Assembly (NCBI RefSeq): GCF_002934365.1
Contig: NZ_PTIY01000002.1
Location: 186,001-250,000, forward strand
From: Methylobacter tundripaludum
GTDB taxonomy: Bacteria > Pseudomonadota > Gammaproteobacteria > Methylococcales > Methylomonadaceae
Length of the DNA: 64,000 bases
Direction of reading: 5' to 3'
The notes under the pieces are model-generated. The model made no database searches. It was not told the DNA's origin and worked only from the letters and a program-made list of their open reading frames with translations. Of this stretch, positions 48,047 through 59,967 are shown one piece after another. The number at the start of each line of letters is the position of its first letter. Position 1 is the first letter of the stretch. Made by a program: the position numbers and the translations under genes.

Positions 48047-50161
48047 ATGTCTATTGATATGTCACAATTCCATCAGGTCTTTTTTGAAGAATGTTTCGAA
48101 GGCCTGGAAGCAATGGAATCAGGATTGTTAACTCTCGATATGGGAGATATTGATTCGGAAATAATCAATACCATTTTCAGGGGGGCGCATTCGATCAAGG
48201 GTGGCAGTGGAACTTTTGGTTTTACCGTAGTTGCTGAATACACCCATATTATGGAAACCTTGCTTGATGAAATGCGAGATGGGCGTAGGAAAGTAACCCA
48301 GCCGGCAGTAGATGTTTTACTTGGATCTGTTGATTGCCTCAGAGAGATGCTGACTGCGATACAGAATGAACAGGACGTTAATAACGCTAGCGTAGCCAAG
48401 CATAAAAAAGCGTTGGAAGTTGTTCTTAACGGCGGTTCTATGACAGAAGAATCGGCCCCCATTCCTGTTGGGCAGGAATTAGCGAAAGAATCTGTTGCCG
48501 TCAACATCGTCCCTGATATTGCGGAAGAAGAATCCGTTGAATTAGAAGAGCAGGGCTGGAAAATAGCTTTTTGCCCCTATTTGGATTTGCTTAAAACCGG
48601 CAATGATCCTGTAAGACTGTTTCGAGAGCTGAATGAGCTAGGTGAATTAACAACTATTGCTAATATTCAGGATATTCCAGGTTTTTATGAGTTAGATCCA
48701 GAGGAATGTAATATTTCTTGGGATTTAAAAGTTGTCGGAGATATTTCGGGCGATGAAATCAAGGAAATATTTAATTGGGTTGAAGGCGATTGTGAAATGG
48801 AGATTGAGCCGCTTGCTAAAACCAAAATCGTAAAATCCGCTCCTGCTGTACAAGAATCCCATCCTGAACCTGCCGTAACCATATCCAATAATCCCGTTCC
48901 TAAGCCCGTTGAGGTCAAATCTAAGCCAGTTCAAGAGGCCAAAAAACCGGAAGTTCAGGATAATGACAATGAAGCGGCAAAAACCACAGCAAAAGCCAGC
49001 TCAATTCGGGTGGATACCGATAAAATCGATACTTTGATCAATATGGTTGGTGAAGTTGTGATTACCCAATCAATGTTGGGTTTAGTGGGTGAAAACTTTA
49101 GTATGGATAAAGTTGGCCAACTTAAAAGAGGGCTAGCCCAGTTAGAACGCCACACTCGAGATCTACAACAAAGCGTCATGAATATTCGGATGCTGCCTAT
49201 TAGCTTCGTTTTTAGCCGCTTCCCGCGTTTAGTACATGACATCAGCAGTAAATTAGATAAGAAAATTGTGCTGAAACTTGTCGGAGAAAATACCGAAGTC
49301 GATAAAGCCGTCGTTGAGCTGATCAATGACCCGTTGGTTCATTTAATTAGAAATAGTCTGGATCACGGTATAGAAATGCCTGCTGACAGAGTCGCAGCAG
49401 GTAAGCCTGAAACAGGAACTATAGAGTTGAAGGCCTATCATCGAGGCGGTCACATCGTTATAGAAATCATCGACGATGGTCGTGGATTAAATAAAGATAA
49501 GCTGCTGGCAAAAGCCATAGAAAAAGGTTTGATTGAAGAGAATAACTTACTGACAGAAAAACAGATATTCGAATTGATCTTTATGCCTGGTTTTTCTACG
49601 GCTGAACAGCTCACCGATATTTCCGGTCGCGGTGTAGGCATGGATGTCGTAAGAAGAAACATCCAGTCATTGGGCGGTAATATAGAAATTATTTCAGAGC
49701 TGGGTAAAGGCACAACGATTGCGATCCATTTACCGCTAACCTTGGCTATTCTTGACGGCCAATCCGTTGCTGTGGGAGACGAGACTTATATTGTACCGTT
49801 AGTCTCCATTATTGAATCGATTAACATTACGGAAAGAATGTTAAACAAGGTAGCAGGTAAAGGGGAGACTTTTCGTCTGCGCAATGAATATTTACCTGTT
49901 ATCAGAATGCGAGAAATTTTTAATGTCCATTCTGGCAATCCAACGAAGTCAAAGGAGGGAGTTCTTGTGGTTGTTGAAGGACAGGGGGAGCTTTGTTGCT
50001 TACTCGTAGATGAATTATTAGGCCAACAACAGGTTGTTATTAAATCATTGGAAGCAAATTACCGGCGAGTGGAAGGCGTTTCAGGGGCAACTATTTTGGG
50101 TGACGGTTCTGTTGCGCTGATTCTTGATGTTCCAGGTTTGGTGCGTTTTTCAACTCGATAA
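48047..50161 (+). CDS. cheA: Chemotaxis histidine kinase CheA
   Basis: The 704-residue kinase of the array has an HPt domain with phospho-acceptor His48 (RGAHSIKGGSGTFGF). At about 165-260 a separate regulatory-type domain (WKIAFCPYLDLLKTGNDP onward) replaces the classical CheY-binding P2, followed by a Pro/Lys/Glu linker. A dimerisation helix pair comes next (DKIDTLINMVGEVVITQSML, about 325-345), then the kinase domain with N-box LVHLIRNSLDHGIE (about 429-442) and GRGVGMDVV (about 527-535), and a C-terminal CheW-like domain. All catalytic motifs are intact. A 196-base gap follows cheY, and cheW starts 20 bases later. Confidence 0.96.
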   Translation: MSIDMSQFHQVFFEECFEGLEAMESGLLTLDMGDIDSEIINTIFRGAHSIKGGSGTFGFTVVAEYTHIMETLLDEMRDGRRKVTQPAVDVLLGSVDCLREMLTAIQNEQDVNNASVAKHKKALEVVLNGGSMTEESAPIPVGQELAKESVAVNIVPDIAEEESVELEEQGWKIAFCPYLDLLKTGNDPVRLFRELNELGELTTIANIQDIPGFYELDPEECNISWDLKVVGDISGDEIKEIFNWVEGDCEMEIEPLAKTKIVKSAPAVQESHPEPAVTISNNPVPKPVEVKSKPVQEAKKPEVQDNDNEAAKTTAKASSIRVDTDKIDTLINMVGEVVITQSMLGLVGENFSMDKVGQLKRGLAQLERHTRDLQQSVMNIRMLPISFVFSRFPRLVHDISSKLDKKIVLKLVGENTEVDKAVVELINDPLVHLIRNSLDHGIEMPADRVAAGKPETGTIELKAYHRGGHIVIEIIDDGRGLNKDKLLAKAIEKGLIEENNLLTEKQIFELIFMPGFSTAEQLTDISGRGVGMDVVRRNIQSLGGNIEIISELGKGTTIAIHLPLTLAILDGQSVAVGDETYIVPLVSIIESINITERMLNKVAGKGETFRLRNEYLPVIRMREIFNVHSGNPTKSKEGVLVVVEGQGELCCLLVDELLGQQQVVIKSLEANYRRVEGVSGATILGDGSVALILDVPGLVRFSTR

Positions 50162-50181
50162 GATAATAGATAGAAGCAGAT

Positions 50182-50697
50182 ATGGCACAAGAAGCTGAAA
50201 ATAAAGATACTGACCAATATCACTATAGTAAAAATCTGGATAACGCAGTGCAATATCTGAGTTTTGCTTTAGGCAAGGAAGAATATGGCGTTGATATTCT
50301 TCGAGTGCAGGAAATACGAAGTTGGGAGCCCGTGTCCAGAATACCTAATGTTCCTTGTTACGAAAAAGGCGTCGTTAATCTACGCGGCTCCATTGTTCCG
50401 ATTCTGGATTTGAGAGAAAGGTTTAACTTAAGCAAAGCTGAATATACGCCATTAACAGTTGTTGTGGTGTTGCAAACCGGCGACAGCAACAAGACACGTA
50501 TAATGGGTGTTGTTGTCGATTCCGTCTCTGATGTAATTAGTGTAGATAAAACTGAAATTCAAAGTGCCCCAGACTTTGGGGCTAAGGTAAGTAATGAATT
50601 CATTAATGGACTGGTATCGGTTAATGAACGCATGGTGATGTTGCTTGATGTGGATAAGTTACTGAAACTGGAAGAGCTGGATCAGGATGAAAATTAA
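50182..50697 (+). CDS. cheW: Chemotaxis coupling protein CheW (first copy)
   Basis: This scaffold links receptors to CheA. The 171 residues have a charged N-terminal extension of about 25 residues (MAQEAENKDTDQYHYSKNLD), then a full CheW domain: QYLSFALGKEEYGVDILRVQEIRSW, in parts; VVNLRGSIVPILDLRERFNL at about 68-87; VVVDSVSDVISVDKTEIQSAP at about 112-132; and MVMLLDVDKLL near the end. A second cheW lies at 53147. The two differ mainly in the N-terminal extension, so they may have distinct partners. Confidence 0.95.
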   Translation: MAQEAENKDTDQYHYSKNLDNAVQYLSFALGKEEYGVDILRVQEIRSWEPVSRIPNVPCYEKGVVNLRGSIVPILDLRERFNLSKAEYTPLTVVVVLQTGDSNKTRIMGVVVDSVSDVISVDKTEIQSAPDFGAKVSNEFINGLVSVNERMVMLLDVDKLLKLEELDQDEN

Positions 50698-50757
50698 TGG
50701 TTTTCAAGTATCCTGGGTGGATAAATGTATTTTGCATGGTTTGAGAGGTAAGTTAGC

Positions 50758-53100
50758 GTGAAGATTAATATGCCTGTAACTAATAACGAGGTGATTCTGA
50801 AAAAAGGTGCGATCCTGGTTTCGAGAACCGATTTAATGGGTCGTATTACTTACGTTAATGATGCATTTGTTGAAACCAGCGGATTTACCCGTGATGAGTT
50901 GATGGGAGCGGAACATAACATTGTTCGCCATCCTGACATGCCTGCGGAGGCTTATGAAGATTTATGGGCAACCTTAAAACAACTTAGGCCTTGGCAAGGA
51001 CTGGTAAAGAACAGATGTAAAAACGGCGACTATTACTGGGTCGAGGCCAATGCTATGCCGTTATTTAAAGATGGAAAGGTCTATGAGTATCTTTCTGTTC
51101 GACATCCTCCAAAACGTGACCGAATTCCAGCTGCCGAGTTGTTGTACAAAAAAATTAACGCCGGTGAAGTAAAATTAAAGCCGACAGGTTTAGCAATAAT
51201 AGCTAAGTCTATAGGAGAAATTGCAATAGGGAAGAAAAATGCTTTTGCAGTAGCCGCTTTTTTGCTGCCTATCTTTTTTTTGATGTATCGATTATTTTTG
51301 ACCGGGGAGTATGCCTTATTAGCAGGCGTCGGTTTGTTAGCCGCGATAGCATCTGCACTTAGCATTAACATGACTCGAGTAATAACCGATACGCTGGAAA
51401 CAGCGATCACTATTTGTTATCGGCTGAGCAGTGGCAGCTTCGGAAACAAGGTTAACTTGAAACGAGAAGATCAGTTAGGCGATTTTTTACGTGGCTTGTA
51501 TTGTATGGAAGTCAAGTTGGGCGTGGATTTAGCTGATTTTAAGCAAGGCCTTGCAGAATCCAAACGTATCACTCAGGCTCTGGATAATGTGCAGTCCCCT
51601 GTCATGGTAGCGAACAAGAATTTTGAAATCATTTATATGAATGACAGTGTTCAGAGGATGTTCAAAGCAGCGGAAAGTGATCTTCGCAAAGAACTACCTG
51701 ATTTTTCCGCCGATAAGATGATGGGTTCAAATGTTGATTTGTATCACTCTACAGTTAGAAGCGGGGTATTGCAAAAAGCACAAGAATCAGTCAAAGCGGA
51801 GTTGGTCATTGGCGGTCGGCATATGAGTATTATCGCTAGTCCCGTGAATAGCGATGGCGAACGTATTGGTTATGTTGCTGAATGGCAGGATAGAACTCAT
51901 GAGGTTTTAATTGAGCAGGAAATTGATCGGTTGGTGCAAGGGGTTAAAGCCGGTGATTTAAGTACCCGGATAAAACTAAACGACAAACAGGGATTCACGA
52001 AAGCGCTGTCGGTTGGCATCAATGAGTTAACCGATGTCATTGAAAGTGTATTTAGCGATATTAACAGAGTAATGGAAAATATGGCTGAAGGCGATTTGAC
52101 TACGGCTATTACTAACGAATACCAAGGTGTCTACGCTGAATGCAAGAGTAATATTAATGGCACCTTGGCAAAGCTCAGTGAATTTATCATTCAAATCAGA
52201 GATGCTGCGGATTTTATAGACAGTTCATCACAAGAAATGGCCAGCGGTAATAACAACCTGTCACATCGAGCTGAGCAACAAGCGGCTAGCCTTGAGGAAA
52301 CGGCTGCCAGCATGGAAGAGCTTGCCAGTACTGTAAAAAATAATGCACAGAACACAGTTCAAGCAACGGAGGTTGTGAATTTAGCAAGTCAATTGGCCCA
52401 AAAAGGCGGAGGCGTAGTTAATTCAGCTATCGCAGCAATGCAGGAAATTAATGAGAGCAGCAATAAAATTGCTGAGATTATTGGTGTAATTGATGAAATT
52501 GCATTTCAAACTAATCTGTTGGCATTAAACGCATCTGTAGAAGCTGCCAGGGCGGGAGAGCAGGGGCGCGGCTTTTCGGTTGTGGCGACAGAAGTGCGCA
52601 ACTTGGCTCAACGTAGCGCAACTGCGGCTCAGCAAAGTAATGAGCTGATCCAGAACAGCGTGCAAAAAGTCCGTGCCGGAACGGCTTTCGTAAATGAGAC
52701 GGGGGCCGCGCTCACTGAAATTGTCGAAAGCGTTGCGAAAGTTGGCGACATTGTGGCCCATATTGCCAGCGCCAGTTCAGAGCAATCAGCGGGTATCGAA
52801 CAAGTCAATCAGGCTGTTTCCCAGATGGATGACATTACTCAGCAGAATGCGGCTTTGGCAGAACAGGCCGCCGCAGGTAGCATTGCTATGAGTGAACAGT
52901 CTACCAATATGACCCAGTTGCTTAGCTTTTTTAGAGTCAATTCAAAGGCTGTTTCGGCAATGTCTAAGTCATCCGGGCATAGTAAGGCGTTTGTAGCACC
53001 ACCAGTAAGGGCAACAACGCAAAAAACTGTAGCAGCCCCTGCTTTATTATCTTCGAGTAAGCTCAAAAGTGATAGCAGCGACGAATGGGAAGAGTTTTAA
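50758..53100 (+). CDS. Aer-like PAS chemoreceptor with EWEEF CheR tether
   Basis: The 780-residue receptor begins (GTG 50758) with an Aer-type PAS domain: Arg57, His58 and Asp60 in VRHPDMP, and Trp79 in RPWQG fall at the same positions as the FAD-binding residues of E. coli Aer. A hydrophobic hairpin (about 163-203) anchors it in the membrane with no periplasmic domain. A second PAS-like region (about 280-385), HAMP-like helices and a full MCP signalling tip (DEIAFQTNLLALNASVEAAR, about 580-600) follow. The last five residues before the stop are EWEEF, a CheR/CheB docking pentapeptide. It should sense redox or oxygen state from the cytoplasmic side. A receptor placed inside the cluster, before cheR, resembles Aer2/McpB in P. 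aeruginosa che2. Confidence 0.93.
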   Translation: MKINMPVTNNEVILKKGAILVSRTDLMGRITYVNDAFVETSGFTRDELMGAEHNIVRHPDMPAEAYEDLWATLKQLRPWQGLVKNRCKNGDYYWVEANAMPLFKDGKVYEYLSVRHPPKRDRIPAAELLYKKINAGEVKLKPTGLAIIAKSIGEIAIGKKNAFAVAAFLLPIFFLMYRLFLTGEYALLAGVGLLAAIASALSINMTRVITDTLETAITICYRLSSGSFGNKVNLKREDQLGDFLRGLYCMEVKLGVDLADFKQGLAESKRITQALDNVQSPVMVANKNFEIIYMNDSVQRMFKAAESDLRKELPDFSADKMMGSNVDLYHSTVRSGVLQKAQESVKAELVIGGRHMSIIASPVNSDGERIGYVAEWQDRTHEVLIEQEIDRLVQGVKAGDLSTRIKLNDKQGFTKALSVGINELTDVIESVFSDINRVMENMAEGDLTTAITNEYQGVYAECKSNINGTLAKLSEFIIQIRDAADFIDSSSQEMASGNNNLSHRAEQQAASLEETAASMEELASTVKNNAQNTVQATEVVNLASQLAQKGGGVVNSAIAAMQEINESSNKIAEIIGVIDEIAFQTNLLALNASVEAARAGEQGRGFSVVATEVRNLAQRSATAAQQSNELIQNSVQKVRAGTAFVNETGAALTEIVESVAKVGDIVAHIASASSEQSAGIEQVNQAVSQMDDITQQNAALAEQAAAGSIAMSEQSTNMTQLLSFFRVNSKAVSAMSKSSGHSKAFVAPPVRATTQKTVAAPALLSSSKLKSDSSDEWEEF

Positions 53101-53146
53101 TGTTGTTAAAAACTGAAAACCATATAACCGACAGGAAACTATAACA

Positions 53147-53629
53147 ATGACAACAGATGTGAATAGTCGGGTAGAACAATTTCTCACCTTTCAACTTGCA
53201 GGCGAAGCCTATGGCGTCGAAATTTTAAAGGTGCAAGAGATTCGTGGCTGGGAAGCCGTTCGCATAATACCGAATACCCCTGCTTTTGTTAAAGGTGTAT
53301 TGAATCTACGCGGATCCGTTGTACCCATTATTGATTTACGAGAACGTTTTTCTCTGGAACACTGTGAATATTCTCCTAAGACAGTAGTTATTGTGCTTTG
53401 TGTTGAACATGGAGCAAACCAGTTTGTTATGGGCATTGTGGCCGATGCGGTTTCTGATGTGCTGGATATTAACTTAGGGGATATCAAAAAAGCACCAAAT
53501 TTTGGTTCAAAAATTGATACGCGTTACATGCGAGGTATGCATGTGTATAAGAAAAAGATGATTATGCTTTTAGACGTTGATAAATTGCTCAATCCCGATG
53601 AGGTTGAGGGTATTGAAAGTTTGGTGTGA
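53147..53629 (+). CDS. cheW: Chemotaxis coupling protein CheW (second copy)
   Basis: The 160 residues form a plain CheW domain: EQFLTFQLAGEAYGVEILKVQ, in parts; VLNLRGSVVPIIDLRERFSL at about 61-80; GIVADAVSDVLDINLGDIKKAP at about 103-124; and KMIMLLDVDKLLNPDE. Its C-terminal codons overlap the start of the parA-like gene by four bases, so the two are translationally coupled. In Vibrio, a CheW-like protein (ParP) links a ParA ATPase (ParC) to the array; the coupling here suggests a similar pairing (inference). Confidence 0.95.
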   Translation: MTTDVNSRVEQFLTFQLAGEAYGVEILKVQEIRGWEAVRIIPNTPAFVKGVLNLRGSVVPIIDLRERFSLEHCEYSPKTVVIVLCVEHGANQFVMGIVADAVSDVLDINLGDIKKAPNFGSKIDTRYMRGMHVYKKKMIMLLDVDKLLNPDEVEGIESLV

Positions 53630-54399
53630 CGGTGAGAATTGTTGCAATAATTAATCAGAAAGGTGGGGTTGGAAAGACGACTACTACTGCGAATTTATGT
53701 CATGCTATTGCAGAATTAGGAATAAAAGTTACGGCCATCGATCTTGATCCGCAAGGCCATTTAGCAGTTTCTTTAGGTGTAACAACACAGGGGATTGGTG
53801 GTATTGATGAGGCTATGCTGAAAGAGAAAAAAGTTCATCAGCAACTTATTTCTGTCAGGGATAATTTGCAGCTCATTACATCAGGATCAAAGCTTAAAGA
53901 GATTGAACACCTAACGAGCAATAGTTCGCCTCGTGGTGTTTTGTTAAAAGATGCCTTACATGAAAGTCTTAATGATCAGGACTTTGTTTTTATTGATTGT
54001 CCCCCATCTTCGGGATTGCTAGTTGCGAATGCATTGATTGCTGCTGATGAGATTTTAATTCCTATGGCCAGCGATTTTCTTGCGTTGCAAGGTTTATCTC
54101 ATTTAATGGGTACGATTAAGAGATTCGAAAAGGCTTTGAAAAGGAAATTTAAAACACTATTAGTGATGTCTCGATATTCGCCTAATAGAAGAATATCGAG
54201 CCAGGTGTTAAATATTCTGCTTACGCATTTTCCTGAGCAAATATTGGCGACAGTCATTAGAGAGACAGCGCTGCTTGCAGAATGTCCCAGCTTTGGTAAA
54301 ACGATTTTAGAATATAGTCCGAAAAGTCGTTCGGCAAGGGATTTTCGTAGCCTTGCTCATGATTTTCTTGAAGACAAGGTGATGTATGGCAACAAGTGA
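53626..54399 (+). CDS. ParA/MinD-family ATPase of the chemosensory cluster
   Basis: The 257 residues have the deviant Walker A NQKGGVGKTTTTANL (about 9-23), Walker A' AIDLDPQGHLAVSLG (about 38-52) and Walker B FIDCPPSSGLLVANAL (about 124-139), as in ParA/Soj proteins. In chemotaxis operons such ATPases (ParC in Vibrio, PpfA in Rhodobacter) place arrays at poles or segregate them at division. There is no parB or parS here, which argues against a plasmid or chromosome partition role. The start GTG at 53626 overlaps the cheW stop; a GTG at 53632 is possible. It also overlaps the next gene by 14 bases. Confidence 0.9.
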   Translation: MTVRIVAIINQKGGVGKTTTTANLCHAIAELGIKVTAIDLDPQGHLAVSLGVTTQGIGGIDEAMLKEKKVHQQLISVRDNLQLITSGSKLKEIEHLTSNSSPRGVLLKDALHESLNDQDFVFIDCPPSSGLLVANALIAADEILIPMASDFLALQGLSHLMGTIKRFEKALKRKFKTLLVMSRYSPNRRISSQVLNILLTHFPEQILATVIRETALLAECPSFGKTILEYSPKSRSARDFRSLAHDFLEDKVMYGNK

Positions 54400-55033
54400 A
54401 GAAAATGATTTAATCGGGTACGATCCTCTAGCGTGGATGGACGGCGATGTTGATAAGGTTGAAGAAACAATCGATAAGGTATATTTGGATAGCAATAAAC
54501 CTGAAGACGCAGGCTGTGATAATGATGTCACGATGACCGATGATTACTCGGATGATTTGATTGAAAATGCCGAAGAAATTGTGATTTTAAATATAACTAA
54601 AGAAAATGAATTAGTAATAGATGAGATCGATAGCGACAGCGTTTTTATAGAAGAAAGGGGTGATGACAGCATGGATGGAGAAGGTAACTGGGCAAAAATA
54701 GATGCATTAGACGGTTCAGGAGCAGTTGCCGAGGATTCTGTTTCAGAGGAAATGGATGGGTCGCAAATTGATTTAGATTCTACATTGACTATTCAGAATG
54801 TCGTTAAGCTGCACGAAAAGTTGAAGAATTTGTTGGGCGCTTACGATGAAATTGAAATAAATGCATCTGATGTATCGTCAATAGACACAGCCACACTGCA
54901 GCTATTGGTTTCATTGAAAAAAGATGAAGTTAAATTGCAAAAGAAAGCAACCATTATTTACCCGTCACCACGATTTGTTGAGTCTGCCAAATTGCTGGGC
55001 TTGTTAGACGTACTTGGCGTTCATGACGAGTAA
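54386..55033 (+). CDS. STAS-domain protein with acidic N-terminal extension
   Basis: The 215 residues fall into three parts. First, a short N-terminal peptide (MATSEENDLIGYDPLAWMDG) contains DPLAWM. Second, an acidic, presumably disordered linker covers about 20-125. Third, a C-terminal STAS domain (about 128-215) has DVSSIDTATLQLLVSLKKDE, in which the usual Ser acceptor is Thr (IDTA), as in MlaB-like STAS proteins. STAS proteins act as switch partners of kinases and phosphatases or as scaffolds. The start overlaps the ParA gene and cheR follows 20 bases later, so it is made with the array. Its role is unknown; array assembly or partner-switching output are both possible. Confidence 0.75.
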   Translation: MATSEENDLIGYDPLAWMDGDVDKVEETIDKVYLDSNKPEDAGCDNDVTMTDDYSDDLIENAEEIVILNITKENELVIDEIDSDSVFIEERGDDSMDGEGNWAKIDALDGSGAVAEDSVSEEMDGSQIDLDSTLTIQNVVKLHEKLKNLLGAYDEIEINASDVSSIDTATLQLLVSLKKDEVKLQKKATIIYPSPRFVESAKLLGLLDVLGVHDE

Positions 55034-55053
55034 TTAAAAAGGAAGCGGTTTAT

Positions 55054-55893
55054 ATGGCCATTGTTGAGAAGGATCGAGAATTTAAATTTACTGTTGATGA
55101 TTTTAATTTTTTAAGAAAGCTGTCCAATGAGCATTCAGGTATTCAGGTTCCTGATGAAAGATTTGATATGTTTTATTCGAGACTGTCAAAGCGGGTAAGG
55201 AAACTTGGGTTGGCGGATTTCAAGGAATATTGCCAGTATCTTAAAAATTATCCTGAGCACGAGTTTACTGAGTTTATTAACGCCATAACAACCAATTTGA
55301 CTGCCTTTTTCAGGGAAATGCATCATTTTGATTATGTCCGTGACGTTGTTATCCCTGAAATTTTAGTTAGAAATAAAAACTCCAGAAAAATCAGGGTATG
55401 GTCCGCCGGCTGCTCTACCGGAGAGGAGCCTTATTCTTTGGCGATTACTTTATTGGAAAATGTACCCGCTGACTGGGACATTAAAATTTTAGCAACTGAT
55501 TTGGATACCAATGTCTTACAAACAGCATCGGCAGGTATCTACACGGAAGATCGCGTCAGTGATTTACCAGAAGATATACTCAAGCGATGGTTTATGCGAG
55601 GTAAATCATCACAGTCTGGCCAAGTAAAAGTAAGGCCTCAATTACAACAAATTATTCAATTTAAAAAATTAAATTTGATGCAAGACTGGCCAATGAAGTG
55701 CCATTTTGATTTTATTTTTTGTCGTAATGTTTTAATTTACTTTGACCGTGAAACAAAGACATTACTTGCACAAAGATATGCTCAAATGTTGTCGAGTAGG
55801 TCGTGGTTGTTTATCGGACATTCGGAATCATTAAACCAGCTATCCAATGAATTCGAGCTGGTTGCATGTACCAGTTACAGGAAAAATACATAA
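55054..55893 (+). CDS. cheR: Chemoreceptor methyltransferase CheR
   Basis: It methylates receptor glutamates using SAM, in adaptation. The 279 residues have the N-terminal helical domain (FNFLRKLSNEHSGIQVPDER onward), the NLTAFFRE motif at about 81-88, SAM-binding RVWSAGCSTGEEPYSLAI at about 113-130, the beta subdomain region DRVSDLPEDILKRWF that binds receptor pentapeptides, and FDFIFCRNVLIYFD at about 219-232. The neighbouring receptor ends in EWEEF, a fitting docking site. Confidence 0.96.
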   Translation: MAIVEKDREFKFTVDDFNFLRKLSNEHSGIQVPDERFDMFYSRLSKRVRKLGLADFKEYCQYLKNYPEHEFTEFINAITTNLTAFFREMHHFDYVRDVVIPEILVRNKNSRKIRVWSAGCSTGEEPYSLAITLLENVPADWDIKILATDLDTNVLQTASAGIYTEDRVSDLPEDILKRWFMRGKSSQSGQVKVRPQLQQIIQFKKLNLMQDWPMKCHFDFIFCRNVLIYFDRETKTLLAQRYAQMLSSRSWLFIGHSESLNQLSNEFELVACTSYRKNT

Positions 55894-55899
55894 GCACTA

Positions 55900-56538
55900 A
55901 TGAGTACTAGCAATGATATTGGTCCAGCCTCCATTGATGGCTTTGAACACATTAATAGGTATATGGATAAGGAACGTGGAGTAGTCGCCGCAAAAATTTT
56001 GCCCGGCGAATACTATGTGACCCAAGAGGACGAATTGATTACAACAGTATTAGGCTCTTGCATATCGGCCTGCATCCGGGACAAGGTATCAGGATTGGGT
56101 GGAATGAATCATTTTATGTTGCCCGAAACTACAGCGGATAAGCTGAAACAGGGTAATGAAGCGGTGGTTGGTAATGCAACCCGCTATGGAAATTATGCTA
56201 TGGAGCATTTAATTAACACTATTTTGAGGAATGGCGGCAAAAGGAAAAACTTGGAAGTTAAAGTGTTTGGCGGCGGTAAAATTATTCCAACCTTGACGGA
56301 TGTCGGCCAGAAAAATATTGATTTTATTTTGGATTATATTGACACAGAAGGTTTGCCCCTATTATCCCAGGATTTAGGCGATATTTATCCCCGAAAAATA
56401 ATTTATTTCCCTCGGACAGGGAAAGTTGGAATGAAGAAAATCGAGCATTTGCATAATGATACAATTGTAAGAAGAGAGCGACAGTATTTTAACAATATTA
56501 AAAACGCGCCTGTTGAGGGTGATGTTGAGCTTTTTTAA
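55900..56538 (+). CDS. cheD: Chemoreceptor glutamine deamidase CheD
   Basis: It deamidates receptor glutamines to glutamates. The 212 residues carry the catalytic cysteine in TVLGSCISACIRDK (about 48-61), the histidine in LGGMNHFMLPE (about 66-76) and the core ATRYGNYAMEHLIN and VFGGGKIIP. A 15-20 residue N-terminal extension precedes the domain. The start lies six bases after the cheR stop. The last 27 codons are echoed by a decayed copy at 57061-57147. Confidence 0.95.
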   Translation: MSTSNDIGPASIDGFEHINRYMDKERGVVAAKILPGEYYVTQEDELITTVLGSCISACIRDKVSGLGGMNHFMLPETTADKLKQGNEAVVGNATRYGNYAMEHLINTILRNGGKRKNLEVKVFGGGKIIPTLTDVGQKNIDFILDYIDTEGLPLLSQDLGDIYPRKIIYFPRTGKVGMKKIEHLHNDTIVRRERQYFNNIKNAPVEGDVELF

Positions 56539-56547
56539 GAGTATACA

Positions 56548-56967
56548 ATGAATAAAATACGTGTATTGATTATTGATGATTCATTGTTAATCAGAAAGGT
56601 ACTGACTGAGATTTTAAATTCGTCTCCAGATATTGAGGTGGTTGGCGCGGCAGAAGATCCTCTTATTGCCAGAGAGATGATTAAGGCATTAAATCCGGAT
56701 GTGTTGACGTTGGATATTGAAATGCCACGTATGGATGGGATAACTTTTTTGCGCAATTTGATGCGGCTTCGGCCTATGCCTGTTGTCATGATTTCAGCGC
56801 TTACAGAAAGTAATGCTGAAGTTACTTTAACTGCGTTGGAGTTAGGTGCGGTAGATTTTATAGCTAAACCGACAATTGACGTGGAAAATGCATTGAATGA
56901 CTATGCTGATGACATAATTGCCAAGGTCATAGTAGCATCACAGGCTAATATTAGAAGACTTGAATAA
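56548..56967 (+). CDS. Stand-alone CheB receiver domain (duplicate of the cheB N-terminus)
   Basis: The 139 residues are nearly the same as the first 139 of the full CheB at 57152 (both read IRVLIIDDS at the start, [22 protein letters not shown] and GAVDFIAKP) but stop at the linker, so there is no methylesterase domain. Receiver residues are intact: Asp10-Asp11, phospho-acceptor Asp56, Ser83 in place of Thr, and Lys107. It arose by tandem duplication with the cheD 3' end. Because the frame and active site are kept despite divergence, it is likely functional, perhaps as a phosphate sink or a competitor of CheB. It may alternatively be a recent gene fragment. Confidence 0.85.
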
Positions 56968-57060
56968 TGGTCTGCAATCAGAAATTCTGGAGCGGCAGGG
57001 CTGGATATTACACGGAGAAATATATGTGTATGCCAGGATAAAAACTCCATAAATTCTAGG

Positions 57061-57147
57061 AATGATGTAATTGCTTAAGGTAAAGTAGTAGCAATCAATA
57101 TTAAAAATGCACCTATTGACGGTGATGATCGGCTTCTTTTAGAGTGA
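57061..57147 (+). pseudogene. Decayed copy of the cheD 3' end
   Basis: In-frame translation gives NDVIA, a stop, then GKVVAINIKNAPIDGDDRL and LLE, which aligns with the last residues of CheD (NDTIVRRERQYFN then NIKNAPVEGDVELF) with one codon lost. Nucleotides align over the same span (for example AATATTAAAAATGC against AATATTAAAAACGC at 56493). It directly precedes the full cheB just as cheD precedes the receiver copy, so it marks the duplication joint. The stop codon shows it is not translated as CheD. Confidence 0.75.
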
Positions 57148-57151
57148 GTTT

Positions 57152-58252
57152 ATGGGTAAGATACGCGTATTGATCATTGATGATTCAGCATTAATCAGGA
57201 AAATACTGACTGAAGTTTTAAGTTCCTCCCCCGATATTGAGGTAGTCGGTGCAGCAGCGGATCCTCTTATTGCCAGGGAAATGATTAAACAATTAAATCC
57301 AGATGTATTGACGCTGGATATTGAAATGCCGCACATGGACGGGATAACTTTCTTGAGCAACTTGATGCGCTTAAGACCAACTCCGGTTGTAATGATCTCC
57401 ACGCTTACGGAACATGGTGCGGAGGCTACTTTAAATGCTTTGGCATTGGGCGCGGTAGATTTTATTGCTAAGCCTAAAGTCGATGTTGTTAACACGTTAA
57501 ACGAATACGCCGATGAAATTATTTCAAAGGTCATCGTTGCTGCGCAGGCTAAAGTGGGGGCCGTTCATGATAGAGCGATCAAACCCAAAAGTTCCGCGCC
57601 AGCTTCTCCCGAGATTCCAGAAAAACATTCAGTCGATGTTATTCTGAAACCAGCACCTGTAAAAACTCATATCAGCCCTACCAACAAGATAATTGCCTTA
57701 GGCGCATCAACGGGGGGAACTGAAGCGATTAAAGCTGTCGTTAAAGGGCTGCCGGCAAATACGCCGCCTCTTTTAATAACTCAACATTTACCGGCTGCAT
57801 TCAGTCAGTCATTTGTCCGGCATATTGATTTGGCAACGGAAATGTCAGCGTGTATTCCCAAGCATGGCCAGACGGTTGAGCCGGGTAATATTTATCTTTC
57901 GCCGGGAGACAAGCATATGCTGGTGATTAGAGAGGGAGGTAAATACATTATTCATTTGAGCGATGGTTTGCCTGTCAATCGCCATAAACCCGCAGTTGAT
58001 GTCCTGTTTCGCTCAGTCTCTCAATGTGCGGGTGCAAATGCCGTGGGCGTGTTATTGACGGGTATGGGGGCTGATGGAGCAATGGGCATGAAAGAAATGC
58101 ACGATGCGGGTGCTAAGACGGTTATTCAGGATGAGCAGTCCAGTGTCGTTTGGGGCATGCCGGGGGCCGCATTTAAATTGGGTTGCACCGACTACGTGGT
58201 GCCGTTAGAAGAGGTTTCGCATAAGATTTTAAGCTTGGTTAAGCTTGGTTAA
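57152..58252 (+). CDS. cheB: Chemotaxis methylesterase CheB
   Basis: It demethylates receptor glutamyl methyl esters and is activated by CheA phosphorylation. The 366 residues have a receiver domain (Asp10-Asp11, Asp56 in TLDIEMP, Lys107 in IAKP), a linker of about 45 residues and the methylesterase domain with the catalytic triad: Ser in IALGASTGGTEAI (about 186-198), His in ITQHLPAAFS (about 211-220) and Asp in LLTGMGADGAMGM (about 303-315). It is complete, unlike the receiver-only copy upstream. Confidence 0.96.
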   Translation: MGKIRVLIIDDSALIRKILTEVLSSSPDIEVVGAAADPLIAREMIKQLNPDVLTLDIEMPHMDGITFLSNLMRLRPTPVVMISTLTEHGAEATLNALALGAVDFIAKPKVDVVNTLNEYADEIISKVIVAAQAKVGAVHDRAIKPKSSAPASPEIPEKHSVDVILKPAPVKTHISPTNKIIALGASTGGTEAIKAVVKGLPANTPPLLITQHLPAAFSQSFVRHIDLATEMSACIPKHGQTVEPGNIYLSPGDKHMLVIREGGKYIIHLSDGLPVNRHKPAVDVLFRSVSQCAGANAVGVLLTGMGADGAMGMKEMHDAGAKTVIQDEQSSVVWGMPGAAFKLGCTDYVVPLEEVSHKILSLVKLG

Positions 58253-58439: not shown

Positions 58440-59048
58440 ATGACTAATCAGACTAAATCACAATTTATTGCAGTAGCTTCCATTACCTCGGAGTTGAGTG
58501 CGGTCATGGTGGTGGCTAAAGAAATATCATTAGCTGCGGCCAACGCCAAGGCTATCGCATTTAGGGCTGGAGATAAAGCAAAAGGATTTCAACCGATTAC
58601 TGATTTCATTAATGAATTGGCTAAAGAAACAATTGAACTGGTTACCAATATCAATATCTATGCCTTAGTGTTATATCGCTTAACTGTCGATGAATACCAA
58701 AAAACGGTTGCGTATAATAAATTCGAGCTGGCGGCAAAAATGGCTGAAGATGCCCCCTATGCTAAATCGATGCAGGAGCCTGTAGATCATGCAAGGCTGT
58801 CAATGCAAGATTGCCAAAGGCAGTTTAAACGGGATGTCTCGCAACTGTTAGGCCAGCTCGAAGCCGTGATGCATCATGCACGCGCCGCTCGGGTTATTGC
58901 AGCAAATTCAAGAATTGAAGCATCACAAGCAGGTGAATATTTGCAGAGTTTGCAGGCGGTTGCTGAAAGTGTGGATAAAGCCGCACATACCATTCATGAT
59001 AATGTGCAGCGTTGTAGGATCGCATTATCCATTTATCGCAATAGTTGA
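58440..59048 (+). CDS. Soluble chemoreceptor-like protein with two receptor-tip segments
   Basis: The 202 residues are almost entirely helical, with no membrane segment, HAMP or ligand domain. Two stretches resemble the descending helix after the MCP signalling tip: ANAKAIAFRAGDKAKGF, followed by QPITDFINELA (about 35-62), and ANSRIEASQAGEYLQSLQ, followed by AVAESVDKAA (about 161-188). Compare NASVEAARAGEQGRGF in the receptor at 50758. It may bind CheA/CheW or the diiron protein encoded 29 bases downstream. It lies in the chemosensory cluster and in the same orientation. I do not recognise a named family; calling it an adaptor is inference. Confidence 0.7.
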   Translation: MTNQTKSQFIAVASITSELSAVMVVAKEISLAAANAKAIAFRAGDKAKGFQPITDFINELAKETIELVTNINIYALVLYRLTVDEYQKTVAYNKFELAAKMAEDAPYAKSMQEPVDHARLSMQDCQRQFKRDVSQLLGQLEAVMHHARAARVIAANSRIEASQAGEYLQSLQAVAESVDKAAHTIHDNVQRCRIALSIYRNS

Positions 59049-59077
59049 ATAGTTTAACTTAAAAGGCATTGTTTTTT

Positions 59078-59806
59078 ATGAAAACGACCAAGATATATGA
59101 AGGATCGCATCAATGGATTATGTTTGGAAGGGATGAAGGCAAGCCCAATAATGTAATCGATACCAACCAATATGTAGTACGCACGGCCAACCGCTGTCTG
59201 CTTTTAGATCCGGGTGGCGCTGAACTGTTTGCCCCGATGATGGCGGCTGTGTTACATCATGCACCTGTAGATCAAATAACGGATCTGTTCGCTTCGCATC
59301 AGGATCCTGATGTGATCTCGTCGCTGGGTTTATGGGATCAGGCGTTAACAAATGCCAAGCTCCATGCGCCGGCGATTTGGGAAGGTTTTTTGCGGCATTA
59401 CAGCTGTGAATCAATAGAATACGTGGCTATTCCGGATAACGGCGGAACAATTAAATTGGAGTCTGTGGAATTACAGATTATCCCTGCTCATTATTTGCAC
59501 TCATCCGGGAATTTTCACATTTATGATCCGCAAGCTAAGATTCTGATGTCTGGGGATGTGGGTGGAGCTATCGAGGGTCCTGATGCACCTGTTTTCGTTG
59601 AGAATTTTGCCGCGCATGTAGAGAAAATGCGGTATTGGCATCAGCGGTGGATGCCGTCAAATCAGGCCAAAAGAGTCTGGATTGAACGGGTAAGAAATCT
59701 GGATATTGATATTTTAGCTCCACAGCATGGACGGATGTTTAAAGGCGATGATGTTAAACGGTTTTTAGACTGGTTTGATGCTTTACAGGTAGGTATCGCT
59801 GTTTAA
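59078..59806 (+). CDS. Oxygen-binding diiron protein (metallo-beta-lactamase fold), ODP-like
   Basis: The 242 residues match the flavodiiron metallo-beta-lactamase core without flavodoxin. Metal ligands can be counted: His74-x-Asp76-x-Asp78 (SHQDPDV), then His141 after 62 residues, Asp160 after another 18, and His217 (PQHGRMF). This is the spacing of flavodiiron proteins, but Glu is replaced by Asp at 76 and the usual His after Asp78 is Val. Such stand-alone ODP proteins occur in chemotaxis operons and sense oxygen or Fe(II) in Treponema. Reductase-type NO/O2 turnover would need an electron donor not seen here. A TTG at 59069 is an alternative start. Confidence 0.82.
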   Translation: MKTTKIYEGSHQWIMFGRDEGKPNNVIDTNQYVVRTANRCLLLDPGGAELFAPMMAAVLHHAPVDQITDLFASHQDPDVISSLGLWDQALTNAKLHAPAIWEGFLRHYSCESIEYVAIPDNGGTIKLESVELQIIPAHYLHSSGNFHIYDPQAKILMSGDVGGAIEGPDAPVFVENFAAHVEKMRYWHQRWMPSNQAKRVWIERVRNLDIDILAPQHGRMFKGDDVKRFLDWFDALQVGIAV

Positions 59807-59934: not shown

Positions 59935-59967
59935 AAGGGCGCTATTAATCTAGCGCCCTTTTTGTTT
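59935..59967 (+). terminator. Intrinsic terminator after the chemosensory cluster
   Basis: AAGGGCGCTA at 59935-59944 pairs exactly with 59951-59960 around TTAATC, followed by TTTGTTT. It is about 130 bases after the last cluster gene, the likely transcript end. Confidence 0.8.

Follow-up and report, generated by a model that had tools for sequence, protein, structure and literature searches.

How might a protein that resembles a chemoreceptor, and has neither a sensor nor a membrane part, take part in chemotaxis? This question is raised by two adjacent genes behind a chemotaxis (che) operon in a 64,000-nucleotide stretch of DNA from Methylobacter tundripaludum (RefSeq assembly GCF_002934365.1, contig NZ_PTIY01000002.1, positions 186,001 to 250,000 of the forward strand; hereafter the window). 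The first encodes a protein of 202 residues, here called the mini, and the second a diiron protein of the ODP family. An earlier note, written from the letters of the sequence, had proposed that the mini may be an array-docking partner that passes the diiron signal to CheA. We found that the mini and ODP form a real unit, that the mini contains two segments homologous to the tip of methyl-accepting chemotaxis proteins (MCPs), and that its presence tracks CheA.

Conserved pairing of the mini and ODP genes

Co-occurrence of the two genes in other genomes, which the earlier note had set beforehand as a point on which its proposal could fail, proved to be near-universal, with matched types of both genes and with pairs inside che operons. 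Among relatives of the mini on named contigs (the best 80 of 106 were used), 79 of 80 loci had an ODP as the next downstream gene on that strand, at gaps of 18–391 bases, three of them above 100; the 79 include one ODP cut by a contig end after 29 residues (L136), and in the single exception the contig stops 145 bases past the mini. A class-wide sample of 369 genomes yielded 25 places that matched most of the mini profile (E ≤ 1.1e-17), spread over 24 genomes from 17 families, and an ODP lay beside the mini in all 25 (24 loci and L227); with at most eight candidates scored per genome, the 24 mini genomes are a lower bound. Ordinary MCPs in this sample started at 2e-16, mostly in frames of at least 400 amino acids, and were well separated from the minis, and none of the six ordinary MCP loci from this search adjoined an ODP. 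When all fetched loci were counted, including those that overlap, an ODP was adjacent to 198 of the 203 mini hits that scored at least 60 bits; four of the other five were at contig ends and one was a tandem duplicate. This last locus (L061, 4980–6425) carries two tandem minis before one ODP, and the second tip of the extra copy is degenerating.

The pair was also present on plasmids recorded for Pseudoalteromonas (L034) and Shewanella (L219), whose proteins of 205 and 207 amino acids scored 171 and 89.9 bits, respectively, with the mini profile. The Shewanella protein matched no Pfam family at E ≤ 0.001, and of 195 pattern matches in viral contigs, none was confirmed as a mini relative. In a phylum-wide sample, ODPs were detected at E ≤ 1e-40 in 62 of 398 genomes. 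Among 30 of the ODP loci found there, seven had an adjacent mini hit (L189–L195, with L195 very diverged at 33.6 bits) and 22 had none; neighbours were viewed for seven of these 22, and one was a GGDEF gene. Given that ODPs often occur without a mini in this sample, it is the mini that goes with the ODP, and not the reverse. The remaining one of the 30, a pseudomonadotal locus outside the class (L216, 2137–3090), holds a mini-like frame with an in-frame stop beside an ODP, reflecting either a sequencing error or a pseudogene.

Minis and ODPs each form two clusters, and all 137 distinct pairs were concordant (117 and 20). Mini and ODP distances correlated at 0.946, whereas none of 500 permutations exceeded 0.243; the correlation is inflated by shared ancestry. 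Stronger than this is partner fidelity within the same genome: where both types occur together (e.g., G030, G034, and G048), each mini stays with its own ODP type. Pairs of the second type were embedded in an operon of the order CheA-MCP-CheW-mini-ODP-CheR-CheB in five of five loci (L234–L238). Of 13 paralogue loci in which both genes were complete, 10 had them overlapping by 4 bases.

Two receptor tips in one short chain

Residues 12–72 of the mini matched the Pfam family MCPsignal with E = 3.2e-5 and 24.3 bits, which is below the curated cut-off of 34.6, and a match to this family at E ≤ 0.01 recurred in 11 of 12 members of the mini family. AlphaFold2 (AF2) predicted four helices (residues 3–47, 51–101, 109–161, and 165–200) with turns at both tips, at a mean predicted local distance difference test score (pLDDT) of 86.7 and a predicted template modelling score (pTM) of 0.77. 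Judging from helix order rather than coordinates, both tips would lie at one end of the bundle. Conservation over 128 family sequences (effective number ∼29) peaked at residues 26–61 and 148–185.

The helical protein with two MCP-tip-like stretches described in the earlier note (near residues 35–62 and 161–188) agrees with the profile comparisons, in which both halves of the mini displayed the conserved hairpin tip of chemoreceptors. Using hhalign, the N half was placed on the MCP tip with E = 1.6e-11 and the C half on the same tip with E = 1.3e-5 (score 34.9), while the two halves aligned with each other, tip on tip, across 62 columns (E = 2e-5, score 30.0). None of 100 column shuffles of the C half reached the real score against either the MCP (best 18.2) or the N half, nor did any of 100 heptad shuffles (best 30.9 and 23.2, respectively). 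When the tip was removed from the MCP profile, scores dropped to 14.8 and 15.6, the former being that of the C half; the middle of the mini scored 8.4, and the reversed C half 14.7 against the MCP. A profile of the C half (residues ∼105–202, 19 sequences) searched against 177,635 distinct PDB sequences had chemoreceptor sequences as its top seven matches, all in the tip register (E from 9.3e-6 to 9.5e-5), which from their entries and alignments look like versions of two receptors. We conclude that the second tip is real. The best four PDB matches of the whole-family profile, 4jpb, 3ur1, 3g67, and 3g6b, are all named methyl-accepting chemotaxis protein; we take them to be the Thermotoga maritima soluble receptor Tm14, with 3ur1 and 4jpb presumably fragments of it in ternary complexes with CheA/CheW. 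In a VIA-align comparison, the matches listed for the mini contained no MCP chain other than receptor sensor domains, which carries no weight either way because an MCP signalling chain supplies just one of the two hairpins of a dimer.

That the mini has no sensor or membrane part, as also noted earlier, is in line with its hydropathy: the best 19 residues reach 1.65, in a stretch that includes a Glu, vs. 2.19 for the MCP of the same window, so that a membrane helix is not likely from the sequence. A membrane anchor in this borderline hydrophobic N-terminal stretch was considered and rejected, as the stretch has a charged residue and corresponds to tip helix 1. The mini helices are only 36–53 residues long, and the long coiled coil with a methylation region was not found; methylation sites sit further from the receptor tip. 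CheZ, considered for its size and helical hairpins, was absent from Pfam matches at E ≤ 10, among which weak matches were mostly filtered. Compared with M. tundripaludum, the mini gene had 6, 4, and 48 differences at first, second, and third codon positions, respectively. Given that differences between species are mainly at third positions, purifying selection acts on the mini frame.

The diiron protein

The second open reading frame (ORF) matched PF19583 (E = 3.2e-71; 239.7 bits vs. a curated cut-off of 27.2) and the PDB entries 6qrq (E = 1e-59) and 6qnm (E = 6e-53), and the general metallo-beta-lactamase family in Pfam matched it as well. Its ATG at 59078 follows the mini stop after 29 bases, the gap reported earlier, and an alternative upstream TTG at 59069 would leave 20. 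Ligand spacing was also as claimed (H74-x-D76-x-D78, 62 residues, H141, 18 residues, D160), and to it we add H217, the usual sixth ligand, which the claim had omitted. All six predicted ligands were invariant in 10 compared ODPs and aligned to 6qrq and 6qnm; the six-ligand assignment is one that we assume to carry over from flavodiiron proteins. As a member of this family, the protein would sense oxygen or iron.

The genome from which the window comes encodes a second ODP (L075, 1420–2190, G000:C5), followed by what by eye is a GGDEF-type gene, and in another locus (L197) an ODP neighbours a GGDEF protein recognized by Pfam. ODPs may thus feed cyclic di-GMP signalling as well. In addition, a C-terminal ODP remnant of ∼100 amino acids lies shortly after an MCP and CheW in the same genome, with no mini hit (L003, 10–1068; G000:C3, ∼330603), an arrangement that looks like a decayed operon of the second type.

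Link to CheA and division of residues between the tips

Among 237 genomes of the family, the CheA dimerisation domain was detected in 114 of 115 genomes with a mini vs. 52 of 122 without one (Fisher P = 4e-25, a value that ignores shared ancestry). In the exception, G147, which has no CheA, only residues ∼97–199 of the mini remain, joined to a stretch that by eye resembles an IS200-type transposase (L220, 2311–2799), and the ODP frame is without its C-terminal end; this fits decay of both genes along with CheA loss. Given that tip homology was strongest to 4jpb, 3ur1, 3g67, and 3g6b and that the presence of the mini tracks CheA, the docking part of the earlier proposal is plausible; the proposal as a whole is partly supported, with binding to the ODP and docking on the array being what we infer.

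The trimer interface of receptors comprises E385-R388' ionic locks and F396 stacking (PMC8144572). In the mini, these contacts are divided: tip 1 has N381-, R388-, G395-, and F396-like residues and no E385-like acid, and tip 2 has the E385-like acid and no R388- or F396-like residues. For positions beyond E385, R388, and F396, we use the numbering presumed to apply to these receptors. Over 128 minis, the E385 equivalent was never acidic at tip 1 and was E in 123 at tip 2, the R388 equivalent was R or K in 112 at tip 1 and in 8 at tip 2, and the F396 equivalent was F or Y in all 128 at tip 1 and in none at tip 2, where 127 had L. The E and F parts of this split were kept in both mini groups, and all 18 ordinary MCPs used for comparison carried all three residues. 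Since trimer-contact residues are divided between the tips, the mini may be regarded as an asymmetric pseudo-dimer.

Proposed mechanism and alternatives

We consider it probable that the mini is an array-docking adaptor that carries an oxygen or iron signal from the ODP to CheA. It would be a natural, miniature receptor tip in a single chain: a four-helix bundle that mimics an MCP dimer at its kinase-docking end and whose two tips stand in for the two dimer subunits. The mini lacks a sensor and a membrane part and is too short to hold a methylation region, and its input would be the separate ODP encoded next door. The iron-loaded ODP would bind or release oxygen at its diiron site, which would alter how it touches the mini at the distal end of the bundle, where the helix 2/3 loop is a candidate contact. 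The altered contact would in turn shift the placement of the mini tips relative to the normal receptor dimers on CheA/CheW, and the changed kinase output would result in an oxygen/Fe(II) taxis response. More tentatively, the mini could be a single-chain asymmetric dimer, in which one tip serves the trimer axis and the other the CheA/CheW-binding periphery, while the ODP replaces the sensory and membrane half; which tip would face the axis is likewise conjectural. As part of this tentative reading, the E385/R388/F396 split could be a record of tip specialisation, with the E and F positions kept in both pair types, the minis of which share <20% identity.

Several observations weigh against the adaptor and its asymmetry. 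Both mini–ODP binding and docking on CheA/CheW would follow from homology and genome context rather than from a predicted complex, and the sensed ligand from family membership. Within the mini, the distal end is poorly conserved in the family alignment, the AF2 alignment consisted of close orthologues (at least 67% identical to the query), and the match between the N and C halves is by itself weaker than the MCP matches, because the reversed C half still scores 22.1 against the N half. In the second mini group, the R388-like base at tip 1 was present in only 9 of 21, N381 was missing from tip 2 in 30 of 128 minis, and the window mini has Pro at the V398 position. Given this Pro, a tip 1 that has lost E385, and a tip 2 that has lost both R388 and F396, ordinary trimers may not form. 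As for genome context, the 122 of 237 family genomes without a mini at E ≤ 1e-5 include 52 that have CheA, and around many pairs (e.g., in Methylomonas) the ∼4 kb viewed contained no che gene. The G147 case could be an assembly fault, as its mini is at a contig end, and a broken mini can also occur where CheA is present, as in G165, whose mini is found only in two pieces, one with a stop. Finally, the extra mini of L061 (5787–6425), a duplicate upstream of a mini–ODP pair, is not directly followed by an ODP.

The loss of ordinary trimer contacts could also mean that the mini is a negative adaptor, which would bind CheA/CheW by tip 1, be unable to complete a trimer, and cap or loosen arrays, with the ODP setting the free amount. 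Consistent with this, no ionic lock is possible between copies of the same tip, because the acid is missing from tip 1 and, in most minis, the base from tip 2, and deletion of the Treponema ODP changes CheA ordering in arrays (PMC7666581). A pure capper, however, would have no need of a second tip, whose E is nevertheless preserved in nearly all minis, and we regard this alternative as rather unlikely. An adaptor within the array also seems preferable to a mere carrier or partner of an ODP that acts outside it, for instance on another signalling output. While the many pairs distant from che genes and the two ODPs adjoining GGDEF genes would agree with such a carrier, it is improbable given the CheA count in mini genomes, the second-type pairs within che operons, and the specificity of the receptor-tip homology.

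Given that phmmer aligned residues 13–197 to one hairpin of the MCP 2ch7, and the family profile did likewise, we also considered that the mini is an ordinary one-tip cytoplasmic MCP with a long hairpin like 3g6b, its second tip reflecting coiled-coil similarity. In the mini, however, the tip is at residue ∼43 of 202 vs. ∼107 of 213 in 3g6b, and the hhalign matches of both halves, the shuffles, the PDB search with the C half, and the four AF2 helices led us to reject this disfavoured, very improbable reading. Hardly credible and already contradicted is a decaying MCP fragment that lies by chance beside a housekeeping, oxygen- or NO-handling ODP enzyme, since the sub-threshold Pfam score and the metallo-beta-lactamase match that would suit it stand against the divergence at third codon positions, the conservation of the mini in 17 families, a pairing that almost never fails, and the matched co-divergence of both genes.

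Relation to known systems

The earlier note held that a split cytoplasmic receptor of this kind had not been described, and this did not stand. A sensor-less and membrane-less MCP homologue of Treponema denticola that can modulate CheA is reported to be genetically coupled to an ODP diiron protein (TDE2496/TDE2498; PMC7666581), and soluble receptors are said to use ODP as an auxiliary sensory subunit (PMC6978683). The concept is therefore not new. The mini shares with the Treponema system its adjacency to an ODP and the absence of a membrane or sensor part, and differs in carrying two tips in each chain of 202 amino acids. TDE2496 is presumably an ordinary single-tip receptor, a hairpin that homodimerises. 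Tm14 is of similar length (∼210 amino acids) and supplied the best PDB matches of both the family profile and the C half (3g6b, 3g67, 3ur1, and 4jpb), but has its tip mid-chain (∼107 of 213), and we take it to be an ODP-linked, homodimeric receptor with one tip per chain. CetA, in turn, is of the membrane type. Like the mini and ODP, CetA and CetB are a receptor and a sensor that are separate proteins, interacting in an oxygen response; they respond via FAD (flavin adenine dinucleotide) and not a diiron site (PMC12442639).

Natural soluble single-chain MCP signalling domains, with no known function, occur in a small number of genomes, that of Rhodospirillum centenum among them, and these, like engineered single-chain Tsr/Tar, resemble the mini in having two receptor hairpins per chain (PMC4692393, available part). 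In contrast to the mini, with its short helices, diverged tips, and near-constant ODP neighbour, they repeat full-length MCP signalling domains, and the same portion of that source names no partner. It also describes how receptor dimer subunits occupy different places in the array, and that engineered single-chain receptors were built to tell them apart (PMC4692393). A two-tip receptor paired with an ODP was not named in the titles and abstract starts found, a search whose coverage left out most subscription journals and which is weak evidence of novelty. As far as this literature tells, what is new is that these features are combined: the receptor is miniature, two-tipped, and asymmetric, and it is tied to an ODP in many gammaproteobacterial families. 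If this is true, the mini would be a natural and very small single-chain receptor with roles already divided, and subunit roles would be testable with a soluble protein of 202 residues. It would also extend ODP-based sensing to methanotrophs and other Gammaproteobacteria, and oxygen gradients matter for methane oxidation. More generally, these results suggest that a working receptor may need little beyond a tip and a separate sensor.

Locus and operon context

Features of the locus are given in Table 1. The che operon ends 187 bases before the mini ORF. Within it, CheA, MCP, REC, CheB, and ParA-like proteins were named by Pfam, and CheW, STAS, CheR, and CheD by eye. The hairpin 3' of the ODP suggests that the mini–ODP pair ends the transcription unit. 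The nearest named loci were those of Methylobacter sp. and M. tundripaludum SV96, with 98% identity of the mini. Strain SV96 (L080) has the mini–ODP pair, as does Methylotuvimicrobium buryatense 5G (L128).

Table 1. Positions of the mini, the ODP, and surrounding features in the window.
Feature	Position	Strand	Basis
Mini, 202-aa soluble two-tip chemoreceptor-like protein	58440..59048	+	ORF; MCPsignal; AF2
Tip 1, residues 26-61	58515..58622	+	Family conservation; residue comparison; hhalign N half
Helix 2/3 loop, residues 102-108, variable distal end	58743..58763	+	Conservation; AF2
Tip 2, residues 148-185	58881..58994	+	hhalign; shuffles; PDB profile search; residue comparison
ODP-family diiron protein, 242 aa	59078..59806	+	PF19583; PDB 6qrq, 6qnm
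Metal-ligand motif H74-x-D76-x-D78	59297..59311	+	Sequence; invariant in 10 ODPs
H141, predicted ligand	59498..59500	+	Sequence; 10-ODP alignment
D160, predicted ligand	59555..59557	+	Sequence; 10-ODP alignment
H217, predicted sixth ligand	59726..59728	+	Sequence; 10-ODP alignment
Intrinsic-terminator-like hairpin, 128 bases 3' of ODP	59935..59960	+	Pattern scan only
Upstream che operon: CheA, CheW, MCP, CheW, ParA-like, STAS-like, CheR, CheD, REC-only, CheB	48047..58252	+	

Just 5' of CheB (57152–58252), a receiver-only ORF (56548–56967) shares ∼80% identity with the CheB receiver domain, as if it were a partial duplicate of it, and both genes are present in many relatives. The ParA-like ATPase and STAS-like protein within the operon (53626–55033) are also kept in many relatives, and are possibly involved in array positioning.
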